The notes beneath the pieces are model-generated. The model saw only the letters and a list, made by a program, of their open reading frames with translations. It did not search any database and was not told where the DNA came from. DNA of 64,000 nt from Opitutaceae bacterium (lineage in GTDB: Bacteria > Verrucomicrobiota > Verrucomicrobiia > Opitutales > Opitutaceae): positions 62,001-126,000 of the forward strand of contig JAIXWF010000008.1 of the NCBI GenBank assembly GCA_027482185.1, written 5' to 3'. Every line of letters begins with the position of its first letter. Positions within the stretch are counted from its first letter, which is position 1. Shown here one piece after another: positions 23,047 through 30,149 of this stretch. The translations under genes and the position numbers were made by a program.

Positions 23047-23104
23047 CTGATCGGCCGGCCCACCCTTGCGGCCGGCGGGCGCTTTGGTCCACGCTCGCGG
23101 CCCG

Positions 23105-24724
23105 TTGAAGACCCTACCCCGCTTCCGATGGCTCACGGCGCCGCTCGGCGCCCTCGTGTTCGTTTTGTCCGTGGCCGCCGCCGCCACGCCGCCGGTCCAA
23201 CTCGGCGTTTACCCGCAGAAGGTGCGCACGTTTTTCGCGCCTGAAGATCCCGCGGTGCCGGCCGCGCTGCGCACGGACGACATCCCGTTGCCCGTCGGCC
23301 AGATCGCGGCCACGGCGCGCGCGACCGACGGCGCCGTTTGGCTCGGCACGGCCCAGGGCCTCGTGCGCCTTGACGATGGCGCGGCCCCCGCGGACCGGCG
23401 CCAGTACTTCGGCGGCAAACGCTACCTCCCCGACGACGACGTGCGTCGCCTCGTGCCGGCCGAGGCCGGCGGCATGTGGGTGCGCACGCGCACCGGCGTG
23501 GCCAAAATCGAACTGCGGCCGATGACCCTCGCGCAGAAGGCGGCGCACTTCGAAGCGATCGTCGCCGCGCGCCACGACCGCTACGGCCTCACCGCCGATT
23601 CGCACCTTGGAGCGCCGGGCGACACGGCGCAGAACATCCCCGTCGACAACGACAACGACGGCCTCTGGACCGCGATCTATGCGGCGGCGGAGTGTTTCCG
23701 CTTCGCCGTCACGGGCGCGCCCGAAGCGCAGGCCCGCGCCCGCAAGGCGATCGAGGCGATGCTGTTTCTCGAAGAGGTCGCGGGTGGCCGCGGTTTTCCC
23801 GCGCGTTCCTTCATTCGCAAGGGCGACCGCCTGCCGCGCGACGGGGAGTGGCATTGGACGCCGGACGGGCAGTACTACTGGAAGGCGGACACGAGTTCCG
23901 ACGAGATTGTCGGGCACTACGTCGCCTTCGGCATCGCCTACGACCTGCTGCCCGACGCCGACCTCAAGGCCAAGATCGTCGCGACCACGCGCCGCATCAC
24001 CGACCACATCATCGCGAACGGTTACACGCTGGTGGACCTCGACGGGAAACCGACGAAGTGGGGCTGGTGGTCGAAGGCGCGGTTCGCAGAGGACCCGGAG
24101 GAAACCGCGTTGAACAGCCTGCAGCTGCTGAGCTTTTTGCTCACTGCCGCGCACATCACCGGCGACGAGCGTTACGCGGCCGAATACCGCAAGGTCGCAC
24201 ACGAGCTCGGCTACCTCGACCTGATTCTGAAACTGAAACAGGTGCGCACGGAGCTGAATTTCTCCGACGAGGAACTCGCGATGCTGCCGTTCTACGGCGT
24301 GTTCCGGTACGAGCGGGACCCGGCGCGGCTGGCCGTTTACCGCCGCGCGCTCGACGACTGGTGGGAGAACATGGCGCGGGAAAAGAATCCTCTGTGGACC
24401 CTCATTTATCTCGTCGCGAAGCCCGACGCCGACGTCGACCTGCCCGGGGCGGTGCGCACGCTCGCGCGCATGCCGCTCGATGTGATCCACTGGGACGTGA
24501 AGAACTCGCACCGCGCCGACATTGTGTGGGCGGAAAAACCGGACCGCTTCGGCAAACGCGAGGCCGTGACGCTGCTGCCGCCGGACGAACGTCCGACGAT
24601 GCGCTGGAATGCCAACCCCTTCGTCGTCGACGGCGGTCGCGGCGGGCGCGCGGAGGACGACGGCGCCGCCTACCTGCTACCGTATTGGCTGGGCCGATAC
24701 CACAAGCGGCTGCTCGGCGAATGA
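23105..24724 (+). CDS. Secreted protein with propeller-like and alpha-helical (GH-like) regions
   Basis: About 539 residues from a TTG; a second TTG at 23066 is possible. The hydrophobic N-terminus ends AAAAT and looks like a signal peptide. Residues ~70-130 contain ATDGAVWLGTAQGLVRLD and EAGGMWVRTRTGVAKIE, like two-component-regulator propeller repeats. The rest (AECFRFAVTG, DGQYYWKADTSSDEIVGHY, WGWWSKARF) is alpha-helical and resembles the (alpha/alpha) barrel of secreted glycosidases or polysaccharide lyases, without a family I can name. It leads the operon with the GH84 hydrolase 10 bases downstream, which supports a role in glycan use. Confidence 0.6.
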   Translation: MKTLPRFRWLTAPLGALVFVLSVAAAATPPVQLGVYPQKVRTFFAPEDPAVPAALRTDDIPLPVGQIAATARATDGAVWLGTAQGLVRLDDGAAPADRRQYFGGKRYLPDDDVRRLVPAEAGGMWVRTRTGVAKIELRPMTLAQKAAHFEAIVAARHDRYGLTADSHLGAPGDTAQNIPVDNDNDGLWTAIYAAAECFRFAVTGAPEAQARARKAIEAMLFLEEVAGGRGFPARSFIRKGDRLPRDGEWHWTPDGQYYWKADTSSDEIVGHYVAFGIAYDLLPDADLKAKIVATTRRITDHIIANGYTLVDLDGKPTKWGWWSKARFAEDPEETALNSLQLLSFLLTAAHITGDERYAAEYRKVAHELGYLDLILKLKQVRTELNFSDEELAMLPFYGVFRYERDPARLAVYRRALDDWWENMAREKNPLWTLIYLVAKPDADVDLPGAVRTLARMPLDVIHWDVKNSHRADIVWAEKPDRFGKREAVTLLPPDERPTMRWNANPFVVDGGRGGRAEDDGAAYLLPYWLGRYHKRLLGE

Positions 24725-24734
24725 GCGTGCGGCG

Positions 24735-26051
24735 ATGAACGGCGTCATCGAGGGATTCTACGGCCCGCCGTGGAGCGCCGCCGAGCGGCGCGAGCTGCTG
24801 GCCGCGCTGCAGGCGGGCGGCCTCGACACCTACGTCTACGCGCCGAAGGACGACCTGCGGCACCGGGCGGCGTGGCGGGAACTTTATCCGGAGCGCGAGG
24901 CGGCGGAACTGGGGGCGCTCGCGGCGGCGGCGCGGGCCGCCGGGATCGCGTTCGTGTACGCCTTGGCGCCGGGCCTCGACCTGCGTTACGGGGATGCCGC
25001 CGATGCGCGTTGCCTCGAAGCGAAGGCGGCGCAGCTGCAGGCGCTGGGCGTGACGGATTTCGCGCTGCTCTTCGACGATTTGCCGGAGCTGACGCCGCCG
25101 GCGGGTACGACGTGGGCGACGTTGCACGCGGCGGCAGCGAATGCGTTTTTCCGATTTTTGCGCGCGGATCGACCCACTGCGCGGCTGCTGTTGTGTCCGG
25201 CGCCGTACTGCGGCCGCATGGCCGCGGCGGGACTCGGCGGCGCGGACTACCTCGATGTTCTCGGCCGCGAGCTCGCGTCGGAAATCGACGTGTGCTGGAC
25301 GGGACCGGAGATCATCGCGGAGGAAATCACGCCGGCGCACATCGCCGCGGTGTCCGCCCGGCTGCGGCGCGCGCCGGTGATTTGGGACAACCTCTTCGCG
25401 AACGACTACGACGTCCGCCGCTTTTTCTGCGGTCCGTACGCGGGCCGGCCCCCGGAGCTCCGGGCCGCGGTGCGCGGCCTGTTGGTCAACCCGAACTGCG
25501 AATGGCCGCTGAACGCCGTGCCGCTGCTGACCTTCGGCCGTTATGTGAATCACCCGCCGGGAATGCCGTGGAACGAACGCGCTGAGTTTCTCGCCGCGCT
25601 GGCGGCGTGGCGCCCGCGGTTCGAACGGTTGGGCGGGCCGGCGGACGAGGCGCTGCTGCGGCGCTTCGCCGACTGCTTCTATTTGCCGTATGCCGAAGGG
25701 CCGGAGGCGGACGGATTTTTCCGGCGCTTGGAACGCGCGCTGGCGCCCGCGGCGGTGCCGGCGGACGCGGTGCGTGCGGTGCTCGGGGAGACGTTGGCGC
25801 TGCGGGATTTTTGCGGGCGGCTGGCGGAGCTGAAGGACCGGGCGCTGTTCACCGCGCTGCACCGGCGCGTCTGGGAGCTGCGGGAGGAACTCGACCTGGC
25901 CGCGCGCGGGCTGCAGGCGCGGTTGGAACGCGGCCCGGGTGCGGCGGCGCAGTCGGACTTCCATCGGCCGGGCACGTTCCGCGGCGGACCGATGCCGCGG
26001 TTGCAACGCCTGCTCGCGGCGCGGGCGGACGGGAGTTTCGCCCCGCCATGA
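24735..26051 (+). CDS. GH84 beta-N-acetylglucosaminidase (O-GlcNAcase type)
   Basis: 438 residues. Motifs match the catalytic domain of O-GlcNAcases: GVIEGFYGPPW at the start, YAPKDDLRHRAAWRELY, LAPGLDL, the paired catalytic aspartates Asp114-Asp115 in ALLFDDL, IWDNLFANDYD and LVNPNCEWPLN. The enzyme removes N-acetylglucosamine by substrate assistance from the 2-acetamido group. There is no signal peptide, so it should act in the cytoplasm. The C-terminal ~90 residues are a helical region similar to the stalk of OGA. Its TGA overlaps the ATG of a GNAT gene (ATGA). Human OGA carries a GNAT-like domain at its C-terminus, so here the two parts are separate genes. Confidence 0.9.
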   Translation: MNGVIEGFYGPPWSAAERRELLAALQAGGLDTYVYAPKDDLRHRAAWRELYPEREAAELGALAAAARAAGIAFVYALAPGLDLRYGDAADARCLEAKAAQLQALGVTDFALLFDDLPELTPPAGTTWATLHAAAANAFFRFLRADRPTARLLLCPAPYCGRMAAAGLGGADYLDVLGRELASEIDVCWTGPEIIAEEITPAHIAAVSARLRRAPVIWDNLFANDYDVRRFFCGPYAGRPPELRAAVRGLLVNPNCEWPLNAVPLLTFGRYVNHPPGMPWNERAEFLAALAAWRPRFERLGGPADEALLRRFADCFYLPYAEGPEADGFFRRLERALAPAAVPADAVRAVLGETLALRDFCGRLAELKDRALFTALHRRVWELREELDLAARGLQARLERGPGAAAQSDFHRPGTFRGGPMPRLQRLLAARADGSFAPP

Positions 26052-26677
26052 ACGGCGCAGCCCACCTGCGTCCGGCCCGGCCCGCCGATTCGGCGGCGCT
26101 GTATGATATTTGCCTGCGCACCGGGGACACGGGTCGCGACGCCACGGCGTTTTACCCCGAGGATCCGGACGCGCTCGGCCGGATTTTCACGGAGCCGTAC
26201 CTGCGGTTCGAACCGGAGCTGGCGACGGTGTTGGAGGATGCGGACGGCGTGTGCGGCTACGTGCTGGGCGCGCAGGATTCGCGGGCGTTCTACGCGCGTT
26301 ACGAGGCGGAGTGGCGGCCGGGACTGGCCGCGCGTTTCCCGGCGCCCGGCGGCGACCCGGCAGGGTGGACGCGCGCGCAGCAGATCCACCACTTGTATCA
26401 TCATCCCGACTACACCTGTCCGGAGCCCTACGCGGACTATCCGTCGCACCTGCACATCGACCTCTTGCCGCGGGCGCAGGGCCGCGGCTGGGGCCGGCGG
26501 ATGCTGGAGCTGACGCTGGCGCGGCTCGCGGAGCGCGGTTCGCCGGGGGCGCACCTCGGCGTGGCCGTGGCGAACGTCCCGGCGCTGGGCTTCTACGCGC
26601 GTTTGGGTTTCCGCGAACTGCTGCGCACGGGCGGGCCGGCGGACGGCTGCGTTTACCTCGGGAGGAGCTGCCGATGA
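26048..26677 (+). CDS. GNAT acetyltransferase similar to the C-terminal domain of animal OGA
   Basis: 209 residues. Segments align by eye with the pseudo-acetyltransferase domain of animal O-GlcNAcase: LYDICLRTGDTG, FVLED-like ATVLEDADGVCGYVLG, YPSHLHIDLLP, AERGSPGAHLGV, ALGFYARLGFREL and a terminal VYLGRS. Unlike the animal domain, the acetyl-CoA loop is intact (QGRGWG, 144-149), so it could be an active acetyltransferase. The substrate may be an amino sugar released by the GH84 enzyme; that is inference. Both ends overlap neighbours as ATGA, so it is tightly coupled to the hydrolase and the permease. Confidence 0.85.
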   Translation: MNGAAHLRPARPADSAALYDICLRTGDTGRDATAFYPEDPDALGRIFTEPYLRFEPELATVLEDADGVCGYVLGAQDSRAFYARYEAEWRPGLAARFPAPGGDPAGWTRAQQIHHLYHHPDYTCPEPYADYPSHLHIDLLPRAQGRGWGRRMLELTLARLAERGSPGAHLGVAVANVPALGFYARLGFRELLRTGGPADGCVYLGRSCR

Positions 26678-27933
26678 AGCCCGAAGGCACGTGGGTGGCG
26701 CGGCGGCTGGCGCCGGCGCTGACGGCCCTGAGCGACGTCACGCTGCTGGCCGCGATCCGCAACGCGATGGTCGCGGTGGTGCCGCTGACGATCATCGGCG
26801 GGCTGTTCATGGTGGTCTCGTTTTTGCCCGTGCCGGGATGGGACAGGATCGTCGCGCCCTGGCTGCCGCTGCTGCAGTTGCCGGTGGCGGCGACCTTCGG
26901 GTTGCTGGCGGTGTTCGTGTGCGTGGCGCTGGGTTACGACCTCGGCAAACGGCTCGGACAGGAGGCGATCGTGAGTGCGGCGATGGCGTTGACGGTGTTC
27001 CTGCTGCTGGCGCTGAAGCCGGAGGATGCGACGCTGGCGATGGATCGGCTGGGTTCGAAGGGGATGTTCACCGCGCTGCTGGTGGCGACGCTGACGGTTT
27101 ACGCGCAGGCGTTCTTCACGGCGCGGCGATGGGTGATCCGGCTGCCGGCGAGCGTGCCGCCGGCGGTGGTCGAGTCGTTTGCGGCGCTGGTGCCGCTGGC
27201 GGTGCTCGTGACGGGATTTTGGGCGCTGCGGTTCGGGTTGGGTTTCGACCTGGATGCGGCGGTGCAGGCGGCGTTTGCGCCGCTGGTCTTCGCGCTGAAC
27301 ACGTTGCCCGGCATTTTGGTTTACGCGCTGGCGGTGACGCTCCTCTGGTCCGTGGGCATCAACGGCGACAACGTCCTCGATGCCGTCGTCGGCCCGATCT
27401 TCCTGCAATTCCTCGCGGCCAACGTCGAGGCGATGGCCGCGGGCCGGCCTTTGCCCTACGTGACGGCGAACGGATTCACGTCGGCCTTCGTGAACGTGGG
27501 CGGCACGGGGGCGACGTTGGCGTTGGCGCTGCTGATGGTGCGGTCGAAGGATCCGGCGTACCGGAAGATCGCGCGGCTGTCGTTGCCGACGCAGGTGTTC
27601 CAGATCAACGAGCCGATCTTCTTCGGGTTTCCGATCGTGCTGAACCCGATCTTCATGGTGCCGTACGTGCTGAGTGCGTTGCTGCTGACCGGCTCGACCT
27701 ACCTGTTGATGGACTGGGGTTGGATCGGGCGGCCGTTTGTGAACGTGCCGTGGACCACCCCGCCGATCATCGGGCACTACCTCGTCACGGGCGGCGATTG
27801 GCGGGCGGCGGTGTGGGGCGTGGTGTCGTTGGGCCTGGCGATGCTGGTGTATTGGCCTTTCGCGCGGGCGGCCGAGCGCCGCCGGCTCGAAACCGCGCCG
27901 AATCTCGCGCCGCCGGTACCGGCGCCAAAGTAA
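26674..27933 (+). CDS. PTS EIIC-like sugar permease (lactose/cellobiose/chitobiose family)
   Basis: 419 residues with about ten transmembrane helices. The EIIC signature NEPIFFGFPIVLNP and the segment VNVGGTGATLALALL place it in the Lac/Cel/Chb family, which includes transporters for diacetylchitobiose. No EIIA or EIIB domain is fused or adjacent, and no HPr or EI gene is visible, so it may work as a non-phosphorylating carrier. It begins in the stop of the GNAT gene (ATGA) after a good GGGAGGAG site. With the GH84 and GNAT genes this suggests uptake of N-acetylglucosamine-containing sugar. Confidence 0.85.
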   Translation: MKPEGTWVARRLAPALTALSDVTLLAAIRNAMVAVVPLTIIGGLFMVVSFLPVPGWDRIVAPWLPLLQLPVAATFGLLAVFVCVALGYDLGKRLGQEAIVSAAMALTVFLLLALKPEDATLAMDRLGSKGMFTALLVATLTVYAQAFFTARRWVIRLPASVPPAVVESFAALVPLAVLVTGFWALRFGLGFDLDAAVQAAFAPLVFALNTLPGILVYALAVTLLWSVGINGDNVLDAVVGPIFLQFLAANVEAMAAGRPLPYVTANGFTSAFVNVGGTGATLALALLMVRSKDPAYRKIARLSLPTQVFQINEPIFFGFPIVLNPIFMVPYVLSALLLTGSTYLLMDWGWIGRPFVNVPWTTPPIIGHYLVTGGDWRAAVWGVVSLGLAMLVYWPFARAAERRRLETAPNLAPPVPAPK

Positions 27934-28091
27934 ACCACTAGGTTGCTTGGCAGTTTGGAGAGATGCCGGCCAACGCCGGTTCCGGGGCGGCGAGCGGCGG
28001 CGCGGGGCGACGGGAGCCATGACGGAGGCGGGCGGTTGTTACCCAGACAACATGGTTGGCAAGGTTGGGCCGGGTGTTCATGCCTGAGAAC

Positions 28092-30149
28092 ATGAAGTGC
28101 GCTCGTCTTGCCGGACTCTTGGTTCTCAGTGTCGTCCCTGCGGTGCTTTCGCTGGCGCAGACCGGGTTGCCGACGCTGTCGCGGCCGATCGGCGCCCAGA
28201 TCCTGAATCGCGGACCCGTGCAGATCGACCTCACGAACTGTTTCGGCGTGCCCGGCGTGACGGGCCAAGTCGTGCAATTCAACACCACGCTCGGCCGCGT
28301 GAACGTCGAGCTCCAGGCGACCGAAGCCCCGCGCAACGTGGCCAACTTTCTCGGCTACGTGGCCAAGACCTCGTATGACAACACCTTGATCCACCGGGTA
28401 GATACGTTGAGCGCGGTGGTGCCTTCGATCGTCCATGGCGGCGGCTTCGCGGCCACGACGATCCCGCCGGCGCCGGTCTCGATCGCGCGCAATCCGGCGG
28501 TGCCGCTCGAGTACCGCCTCCCCCATGCGCGGGGCACGCTGGCGGCTTTCCATGCGCCGAACGATCCGAACGGCGCGACGAGCGAGTGGTTTTTCAACGT
28601 GCTCGACAATTCCGCGGCCCTCGGGCCGACGACGGACGGCGGCTACACGGTGTTCGGCCGCGTGATCGGCACCGGCATGGCGGTGGTCGACCAGATCGCG
28701 CAGGTGCCGACGTTTTCCGTGGGCGGCACGAATTTCACCAAGTTTCCCGTGCGCAATTTCGCCGCCACGCTGACGCAGCTGACCGCCGCGAATTTCGTGA
28801 CCGTCAACACCGTCCGCGTGATCCCGATCTATCCGCCGGCGCTCGGCGATCCGACGGCCGTGCTTGCGTTCGCCGTGACGCCTCCGGCCGCCGCGGGCAT
28901 CGTGGCGGTGGGCACCGCGGGCTCGACGCTGACGCTGACGCCGCTGGCCGTCGGTTCGGTGAGCGTGACGGTCCGGGCGGTCGATTCGAACGGCAACGCG
29001 TCGCTGCCGGCGACGTTCACCGTGACGGTGCCGACGGAGTCCCTGCTCGCGCCGGTCTTCACGTCCCATCCCGTTTCGCAGACGGCCGCCCAGGGCACCA
29101 CGGTGGTGCTCAACGCCTCGGCGACGGGCGGCGACACGTCGGTGTTTCCGCTGACCTTCCAGTGGTTCAAGGACGGCCAGCCGCTGGCGGCGCCGTCGAG
29201 CCAATATCTCGTTTTGCGGAACGTGGGCGCGGCGAGCTCCGGCGTCTACACCTGCCGTGCGTCGAATGCGATCGGGCCGACGGTGAGCCTGCCGGCGACG
29301 CTGACGGTCGTGCCGACGCTGCCGATCGAGACCGGCCGTCTGGTGAACCTGGCGATCCGCACGGAGGCCAACGCGATCGACGACGCGCTGATCGTGGGCT
29401 TTGCGGTCGGCGACAACCGCACCAACGGCGACAAGCCGCTGCTCCTGCGCGGCGTCGGTCCTTCCCTCTCCCAGTTCGGCGTGCGCGACGTGCTGCCGGA
29501 TCCGCAAATCGAGATTTTCCGCGGTTCCACCCTGATCGGCCGGAACGACAACTGGCTCGGCGACGCCGAAATCGCGGCCCGCTCCGCGCGCGTCGGCGCC
29601 TTTGCCCTCGCCGGGGCCGCTTCCCTTGACGCCGCGGTCGCCACCACGACGGGAATCGGCGCCTACACGGTGCAGATCCGCGACCGCGAGGCCCGGCTCG
29701 GCATGATGTTGGCGGAGGTCTACGATGCCACGCCGGCCGCGCAGATCGGCGAACGCTCGCCGCGTCTCGTCAACCTCTCGGCCCGTGCGCGCGTCGAGCC
29801 CAACGGGATCCTGATCGCCGGCTTCGTGATCGGCGGCTCGACGCCCGTGACCGTGCTCGTCCGGGCCGTCGGCCCGGCCCTCGGTAGCTTCGGCGTGGAG
29901 AACGTGCTGGAGGATCCCCGGCTGCAGCTTTACCGCGGCACGACGTTGCTCAGCGAGAACGACGACTGGGACGGCGACGCCCAGGTCGCCGCGCTGGCCG
30001 GGTCGGTCGGGGCCTTCGCCCTGCCCGCCGGCCCGAGCAAGGACTCCGTGCTGCTCGCCACGCTGGCTCCCGGCGCCTACACGGCGCAGGTCAGCGCGCC
30101 CAATCTCCTCGGCGGCAACGCCCTGATCGAAGTCTACGAGATCCGCTGA
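28092..30149 (+). CDS. Secreted cyclophilin-type PPIase with Ig-like and C-terminal repeat modules
   Basis: 685 residues from the ATG at 28092; an ATG 12 bases upstream would add MPEN. A signal peptide comes first, then a cyclophilin domain (about 45-215: VNVELQATEAPRNVANFLGY, TLIHRV, AAFHAPNDPNGATSEWFFN). A linker with Ig-like segments (QPLAAPSSQYLVLRNVGAASSGVY) follows. The last ~260 residues hold two copies of a ~125-residue module with the motifs GFAVG or GFVIGG, L(L/V)R(G/A)VGP(S/A)L and NDNW or NDDW. The same module ends the next gene. It could be a surface folding factor; the PPIase active-site residues are only partly conserved. Confidence 0.8.
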   Translation: MKCARLAGLLVLSVVPAVLSLAQTGLPTLSRPIGAQILNRGPVQIDLTNCFGVPGVTGQVVQFNTTLGRVNVELQATEAPRNVANFLGYVAKTSYDNTLIHRVDTLSAVVPSIVHGGGFAATTIPPAPVSIARNPAVPLEYRLPHARGTLAAFHAPNDPNGATSEWFFNVLDNSAALGPTTDGGYTVFGRVIGTGMAVVDQIAQVPTFSVGGTNFTKFPVRNFAATLTQLTAANFVTVNTVRVIPIYPPALGDPTAVLAFAVTPPAAAGIVAVGTAGSTLTLTPLAVGSVSVTVRAVDSNGNASLPATFTVTVPTESLLAPVFTSHPVSQTAAQGTTVVLNASATGGDTSVFPLTFQWFKDGQPLAAPSSQYLVLRNVGAASSGVYTCRASNAIGPTVSLPATLTVVPTLPIETGRLVNLAIRTEANAIDDALIVGFAVGDNRTNGDKPLLLRGVGPSLSQFGVRDVLPDPQIEIFRGSTLIGRNDNWLGDAEIAARSARVGAFALAGAASLDAAVATTTGIGAYTVQIRDREARLGMMLAEVYDATPAAQIGERSPRLVNLSARARVEPNGILIAGFVIGGSTPVTVLVRAVGPALGSFGVENVLEDPRLQLYRGTTLLSENDDWDGDAQVAALAGSVGAFALPAGPSKDSVLLATLAPGAYTAQVSAPNLLGGNALIEVYEIR

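Follow-up and report, generated by a model that had tools for sequence, protein, structure and literature searches.

A recurrent bacterial gene pair related to the two halves of animal O-GlcNAcase, and its possible role in amino-sugar uptake

What did the acetyltransferase half of animal O-GlcNAcase (OGA) do before it went dead? The question is raised by an operon in the window (the whole stretch of Opitutaceae DNA analysed here, 64,000 nucleotides), in which relatives of the two OGA halves, a GH84 glycosidase and a GNAT acetyltransferase, are encoded by overlapping genes. The arrangement gives a hint that the dead half of OGA may once have primed amino sugars for its GH84 half. Since the pair recurs with an intact acetyltransferase, with transporters and in fused form, it offers a concrete and cheap test of the original role of the OGA domain. 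The core idea of separate OGA halves is not new, having been published in 2013 for Oceanicola granulosus. What is new is the recurrence of the pair, the existence of planctomycete GH84-stalk-GNAT fusions with an intact acetyl-CoA loop, the sugar transporters beside the pair (mostly EIIC with Asn at the position of ChbC His250), and the location of some GNAT relatives beside GlcNAc-catabolism genes. In the accessible portions of the open-licence literature, we found no wider bacterial survey, no bacterial fusion and no function for the GH84-GNAT pair.

Overlapping genes for the two O-GlcNAcase halves

The GH84 gene (24735..26051, forward strand) encodes a predicted β-N-acetylglucosaminidase of 438 residues with a C-terminal stalk. 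Its PF07555 score of 243.7 bits and its catalytic Asp pair, D114-D115, place it in the family, and the NPNCEW and ANDYD motifs picked out in the initial annotation are also in place. Because the catalytic domain begins at residue 2-3 of the open reading frame, a signal peptide would not fit and the enzyme is predicted to be cytoplasmic. As had been read from the sequence, its stop codon and the start codon of the GNAT gene share an ATGA (26048..26051, forward strand). The GNAT gene (26048..26677, forward strand) encodes a 209-residue OGA-type acetyltransferase whose acetyl-CoA P-loop, [QR]xxGx[GA], is indeed intact (QGRGWG) and in which the equivalent of His135 is His136, the catalytic candidate; both are features of the bacterial members. 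A second ATGA (26674-26677) places the start of the next gene inside the end of the GNAT gene. This third gene (26674..27933, forward strand) encodes a 419-residue EIIC sugar permease of the lactose/cellobiose/chitobiose type (PF02378, 148.3 bits; TIGR00410, 289.1 bits; PDB entry 3qnq, 6.7e-59).

On the 5' side, an open reading frame of the same strand (23066..24724) ends 10 bases before the GH84 gene. Its product, which combines propeller-like blades with a helical domain, is predicted to be exported and we infer that it is part of the operon. Relatives occur in nine of the best 80 of 586 GNAT loci; they were seen at L036, L040, L055, L059, L062, L066, L070, L088 and L093, and in Fidelibacterota too. 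The structural model of the protein, built with 7 sequences, has a pLDDT of 65 and gives weak fold matches. We gave up assigning an enzyme name, the matches being too weak for it: CelD (3.4e-04) alone fell below 0.001, followed by GH146, epimerases and GH9 glucosaminidases. The window also holds a large open reading frame (28056-30149), the start of which resembles a cyclophilin-type isomerase.

As for the kinship with animal OGA, the closest relatives of the GNAT among PDB sequences are OgpAT (3zj0, 8.6e-48) and SsAT (4bmh, 3.3e-44), followed by five O-GlcNAcase sequences (6.8e-23 to 4.2e-21), whereas the best GNAT outside the OGA type reaches 0.0019. The protein is thus far nearer to OGA domains than to ordinary GNATs, and its alignment with OgpAT, which covers residues 7-194 of 209 with the insertion region included, places it among the OGA-type GNATs. 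The GH84 product is most similar to O. granulosus OGA (2xsa, 1.3e-78), with the best human OGA construct at 1.5e-73 and NagJ/BT_4395 at 9.4e-36 or worse. When the two products were joined, residues 307-645 aligned with residues 430-788 of the human enzyme (9qen) and residues 406-628 with residues 482-704 of the Trichoplax enzyme (9qep), the alignments running through the gene junction onto the human OGA stalk and pseudo-acetyltransferase. The gene boundary therefore sits between stalk and pseudo-acetyltransferase, which bears out the initial proposal that the two OGA halves are found here as separate, overlapping genes. The four GNAT segments proposed to be common to the animal C-terminal domain do align with human OGA, in which they read VLEDEDGICGYALG, GSRGAF, ILEFYSKLG and ILGRS.

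The active site is strongly conserved in bacteria. Trp89, His136, Gly147 and Gly149 are invariant in 98 of 98 distinct bacterial GNAT rows, OgpAT and SsAT included, while Asn176 is found in 97, Thr25 in 96 and Gln144 in 93 of the 98. The human domain has K, S, A, D and T at these positions (listed in the order H136, G147, G149, N176, Q144) and the Trichoplax domain keeps 0 of the five. Both animal domains have lost the P-loop and the His, and both keep Trp89. Six outgroup GNATs show His136 and no Trp89; since they have it too, His136 is no hallmark of OGA-type GNATs.

Recurrence, linkage and fusion of the pair

That the two genes are chance neighbours is ruled out by the recurrence of the pair across many genomes. 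We inspected the best 80 of at least 586 confirmed GNAT relatives (genome_contigs), a set whose proportions lean to Verrucomicrobiota. GH84 lies immediately upstream in 46 of these 80 loci, four are at a contig edge and 30 have no GH84 in that position, so that the neighbourhood is not unique to the window's genome. By phylum, GH84 is upstream in 39/48 loci of Verrucomicrobiota, 2/2 labelled Acidobacteriota, 3/4 of Planctomycetota, 1/4 of Deinococcota (a short match), 1/3 unassigned, 0/5 of Fidelibacterota and 0/14 of Actinomycetota. Thirteen of the 14 Actinomycetota loci among these best 80 have none of the sought neighbour genes within 5 kb, which indicates that some members of the GNAT family stand alone and may act on another substrate.

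The linkage is tight as well as frequent. In the 45 full-match pairs (the GH84 of L077, a short match, is counted in the 46 and left out here), the start codon lies at a 4-base overlap in 25, the genes are fused in two and 18 are otherwise spaced. GH84 and GNAT distances run parallel over 51 loci (r 0.88, against a maximum of 0.38 in 2000 permutations), a correlation that still includes species relatedness. This tight coupling, together with the parallel divergence, suggests a shared substrate.

A similar picture emerged within the family. Out of 150 same-family genomes, 13 have a GNAT match and nine a PF07555 match. All seven with a close GNAT copy (62-100% identity) have GH84 directly upstream, and EIIC directly follows the GNAT in five; the other two have a contig end and an EIIC upstream of GH84, respectively. 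All six with a distant GNAT alone have no PF07555 match, and two of the 150 have a GH84 match (174.7 and 26.5 bits) and no GNAT. Neither gene turned up when four other genomes from the window's genus were searched with the GNAT and PF07555; the set is thus patchy, apparently being gained or lost as a unit. Sampling 288 genomes across the phylum turned up a close GNAT copy in the window's own genome alone and distant ones (30-35% identity) in five others.

The survey of neighbours and fusions that the initial annotation called for thus showed a recurring pair, and it also brought two fusions to light. In L064 (a Planctomycetia MAG) and L078 (a Planctomycetaceae MAG), GH84, stalk and GNAT are encoded in one frame. 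The two fusions, from different records, are 73% identical; both keep the P-loop and the His and have EIIC after them, and the L078 frame reaches the contig edge, so that its start is not visible. We then sampled 392 genomes from the phylum to which G422, the L067 planctomycete and itself part of the sample, belongs. Seven of them have matches, none fused: in G625, G596 and G791 the two genes are neighbours but separate, G422 has the GNAT alone, and three have a GH84-type match alone. The length of the open frame had suggested a third fusion in G791, which was rejected on account of a stop and a 144-base gap between the genes.

Permease, neighbouring genes and proposed function

The only solved relative of the window EIIC is ChbC (3qnq). 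The two have Glu334 in common, but His250 of ChbC is Asn in the window protein. Across 43 EIIC rows (which hold at least three pairs from the same contig), this position is Asn in 42, with L061 keeping His, and 42 rows have Glu334, the other showing a gap. His is found at position 250 in six of six plasmid EIICs that adjoin an EIIB or EIIA gene. Unlike what would be expected for a phosphorylating PTS permease, the window's genome, which is 97.98% complete, has no lactose/cellobiose-type EIIA or EIIB match (PF02255, 0; PF02302, 0); control genomes match in both searches. Because of these missing matches and the His250-to-Asn change, the EIIC probably functions as a simple permease and looks like one that has left the phosphotransferase system. 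The accessible portion of PMC11321411 has nothing on an orphan EIIC in Verrucomicrobia. An EIIC is found at 37 of the 80 inspected loci, including 27 of the 46 that carry GH84 upstream. Other transporters beside the pair are ABC transporters (L071, L072, L079 and L140) and, at L066, an SSF symporter encoded three genes downstream of the GNAT.

How might these proteins work together? GH84 enzymes use a substrate-assisted mechanism that requires the 2-acetamido group of the substrate. A glucosaminide that has lost its N-acetyl group would thus resist cleavage until it is acetylated again, a logic that the fungal enzyme RmNag displays in vitro. We propose that the operon serves an acetylate-then-cleave uptake of amino sugars, a reading that, taken as a whole, we hold to have an even chance of being right, and in which we infer import, acetylation and cleavage from the genes. 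The exported protein may work on an extracytoplasmic glycan, and the EIIC would bring in a small β-glucosaminide, which the missing EIIA/EIIB and the Asn at position 250 suggest would stay unphosphorylated. In the cytoplasm, the GNAT would use acetyl-CoA to N-acetylate the 2-amino group on glucosamine residues, the genomic context suggesting a putative glucosamine(-ide) N-acetyltransferase activity (EC 2.3.1.3). GH84 would then release GlcNAc, to be degraded through a BadF/NagK-type kinase, NagA and NagB.

In favour of this reading are the conserved GNAT active site, the three kinds of transporter, the two fusions, and the Falsirhodobacter and Duffyella plasmid relatives described below, which lie among genes of GlcNAc type. 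The last steps have some counterparts among neighbouring genes. A BadF-type kinase gene follows the GNAT at L066, L070 and L072, although the L066 kinase scores 51 bits against the NagK model, under the cut-off of 370. Elsewhere in the window's own genome there are two nagB genes that exceed the cut-off, a nagA-like/nagB-like pair that falls short of it and one BadF gene, all outside the window. BadF and nag genes being outside the window operon counts against the priming reading, as do the Actinomycetota GNATs with no GH84 next to them. A further caution is the large size of the BadF, ROK, ABC and amidohydrolase families, for which the neighbour counts are raw occurrences. Sulfatase genes are also seen near some operons (L040:9127-10785, the one scanned of a cluster in five loci, and L043:8995-11019); the L040 sulfatase also matches an N-sulphoglucosamine sulphohydrolase C-terminal model, just below cut-off.

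A different reading, in which free glucosamine or some other small amine is what the GNAT acetylates, the GH84 substrate does not depend on it and both enzymes simply feed the GlcNAc pool, draws on GNATs found in GlcNAc-type operons that have no GH84. Six of 29 plasmid matches were inspected and no GH84 was found in these stretches. On the Falsirhodobacter plasmid (L133:1711-7202), the order BadF-ROK-DMT-GNAT-nagB-amidohydrolase puts an OGA-type GNAT in such an operon, and the Duffyella relative adjoins sugar-ABC, ROK and BadF genes. The Agrobacterium relative adjoins ROK and Gfo/Idh genes, an unannotated Microvirga stretch has ROK- and Gfo-like matches, and the Mesorhizobium and Streptomyces relatives have no amino-sugar-type neighbours. 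In the same vein, 10 of the 80 inspected loci have EIIC and GNAT but lack a neighbouring GH84, three of them at a contig edge, and nine of these 10 genomes have PF07555 elsewhere, one as a weaker partial match. Such a reading leaves aside the GH84-GNAT overlap (25/45), the fusions (2/45) and the parallel divergence, and we consider it unlikely.

Could the GNAT instead act in biosynthesis, acetylating an amino sugar made by a DegT aminotransferase while GH84 trims a glycan? WecE/WecD-type pairs are a model for an aminotransferase and an acetyltransferase working on one amino sugar. DegT lies within 5 kb of the GNAT at 16 of 106 loci, and its presence at some loci is left unexplained by a purely catabolic route. 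It is absent from the window operon and from within 5 kb at the remaining loci of the 106, however, and the EIIC, ABC or SSF importers point toward uptake, which makes this option improbable. A DegT/DnrJ/EryC1 sugar aminotransferase gene was noted at L036:10555-11961 and at 14 further loci, lying between GNAT and EIIC in 10.

Clostridium acetobutylicum reportedly has an acetyltransferase, GlmA, said to partner the GH3 enzyme NagZ. According to the accessible part of PMC4680927, citing Reith and Mayer 2011, the glucosamine/glucosaminide N-acetyltransferase of this species acts before the β-N-acetylglucosaminidase, the step proposed here for the GNAT. The same acetylate-before-cleave logic could speak for cell-wall recycling, with the pair recovering GlcNAc from peptidoglycan fragments bearing de-N-acetylated GlcN, as could the SIS-domain genes that flank some GH84-GNAT pairs. 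Yet the sole scanned SIS gene belongs to the generic sugar-isomerase-domain subfamily PRK02947 and no MurNAc gene was found among the scanned neighbours, which are a small part of all, so that we regard this role as more doubtful still. Finally, bacterial protein O-GlcNAc cycling, with GH84 stripping O-GlcNAc from proteins and the GNAT acetylating proteins, would suit an OGA-like GH84 predicted to be cytoplasmic, GT41 matches over cut-off in the same genome and an OGT/OGA pair in Thermobaculum, but is very improbable because the GT41 matches are on a contig other than the window's, co-oriented, overlapping transporter genes are left with no place, and the Thermobaculum OGA has no acetyltransferase domain in what is accessible of its description. 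The GT41 (O-GlcNAc-transferase type) matches are clustered at G000:C3:1191843-1209253.

Origin of the animal enzyme and comparison with known systems

The initial annotation suggested that the operon may preserve the state that preceded gene fusion. This view is compatible with the GH84 tree, in which animals group with the OGA-type bacterial GH84s, the window's among them and apart from the NagJ/secreted type, against 12 others (SH-aLRT 98), three of the 12 being long branches. By path length, the animal GH84s lie closest to L079/L072 and to X_L115 and X_L116, which come from two Fidelibacterota genomes. A nesting of animal GH84 within the bacterial OGA type was considered and dropped, since the AU test retains a tree with the animals outside the bacterial OGA-type GH84s, as sister group to all of them (p-AU 0.506). 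In the GNAT tree, animals fall within the family on very long branches. Both planctomycete fusions lie inside a 44-row bacterial GH84 clade (SH-aLRT 99); the tree favours their independence from the animal fusion, yet we do not claim it, one clade of planctomycete and animal fusions being 30.4 log-likelihood units worse and not rejected at 0.05 (p-AU 0.172). The trees use two animal sequences and omit repeat loci (L004, L147, L005, L007, L008 and L145), and the AU tests further omit L088, X_L124, X_L125 and three long-branch GH84s; in the GH84 tree, L140/L141 are in twice and L088 is labelled linked though its GH84 lies 10 kb from the GNAT.

Given the AU result, the long GNAT branches and the two animal sequences, the bacterial pair serves well as a model for the ancestral parts, and may plausibly be the direct ancestor of animal OGA. 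The animal enzyme, whether a fused descendant or a cousin, would have kept GH84 and lost the acetyl-CoA site of its acetyltransferase. In its boldest form, which we offer as possible though rather less probable than the uptake reading itself, animal OGA arose from a bacterial acetylate-then-cleave catabolic pair, its pseudo-acetyltransferase would be a relic of priming, and the planctomycete single chain, beside a PTS-free EIIC, would be active in both halves.

Compared with animal OGA (human 5m7r/9qen, Trichoplax 9qep), the window has the same parts in the same order, GH84, stalk and GNAT fold, and both halves are related. It differs in that the animal enzyme is a single polypeptide with a pseudo-GNAT that has lost the P-loop and the His, whereas the window has two genes and a GNAT that keeps both. 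As for fungi, the accessible text on RmNag (4ZM6) describes a β-N-acetylglucosaminidase likewise tied to GNAT, which leaves (GlcN)2 uncleaved when acetyl-CoA is missing. Unlike the window pair, it combines GH3 with two GNAT domains, with no specific sequence kinship seen, and among the 60 listed of 80 GNAT-profile matches, 4zm6 is absent. The authors of Ngs1, another fungal protein (GH3-like and GNAT), liken its domain layout to that of OGA; from what is accessible of their account, it is the reverse of animal OGA, its GH dyad being divergent and its GNAT the working half. Ties between a β-N-acetylglucosaminidase and a GNAT are thus suggested more than once, with GH84 in bacteria and animals and, in fungi, with GH3. 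A single chemical cause may lie behind this, namely that cutting requires an N-acetyl group.

The closest precedent is that of O. granulosus. In the accessible parts of Rao et al. 2013 (PMC3814719), the gene for OgOGA (2xsa) has that for OgpAT (3zj0) directly downstream, the pair is likened to human OGA, acetyl-CoA is bound by OgpAT and not by human OGA-AT, and the biological functions of the bacterial proteins are stated as unknown; the structure of SsAT was solved by He et al. (PMC3919268, likewise seen in part). The window shares with this pair adjacent GH84 and GNAT genes, the latter of the same subfamily with an acetyl-CoA loop. It differs from the O. granulosus pair, as described in those parts, in its transporter partners, its wide recurrence and its fused forms.
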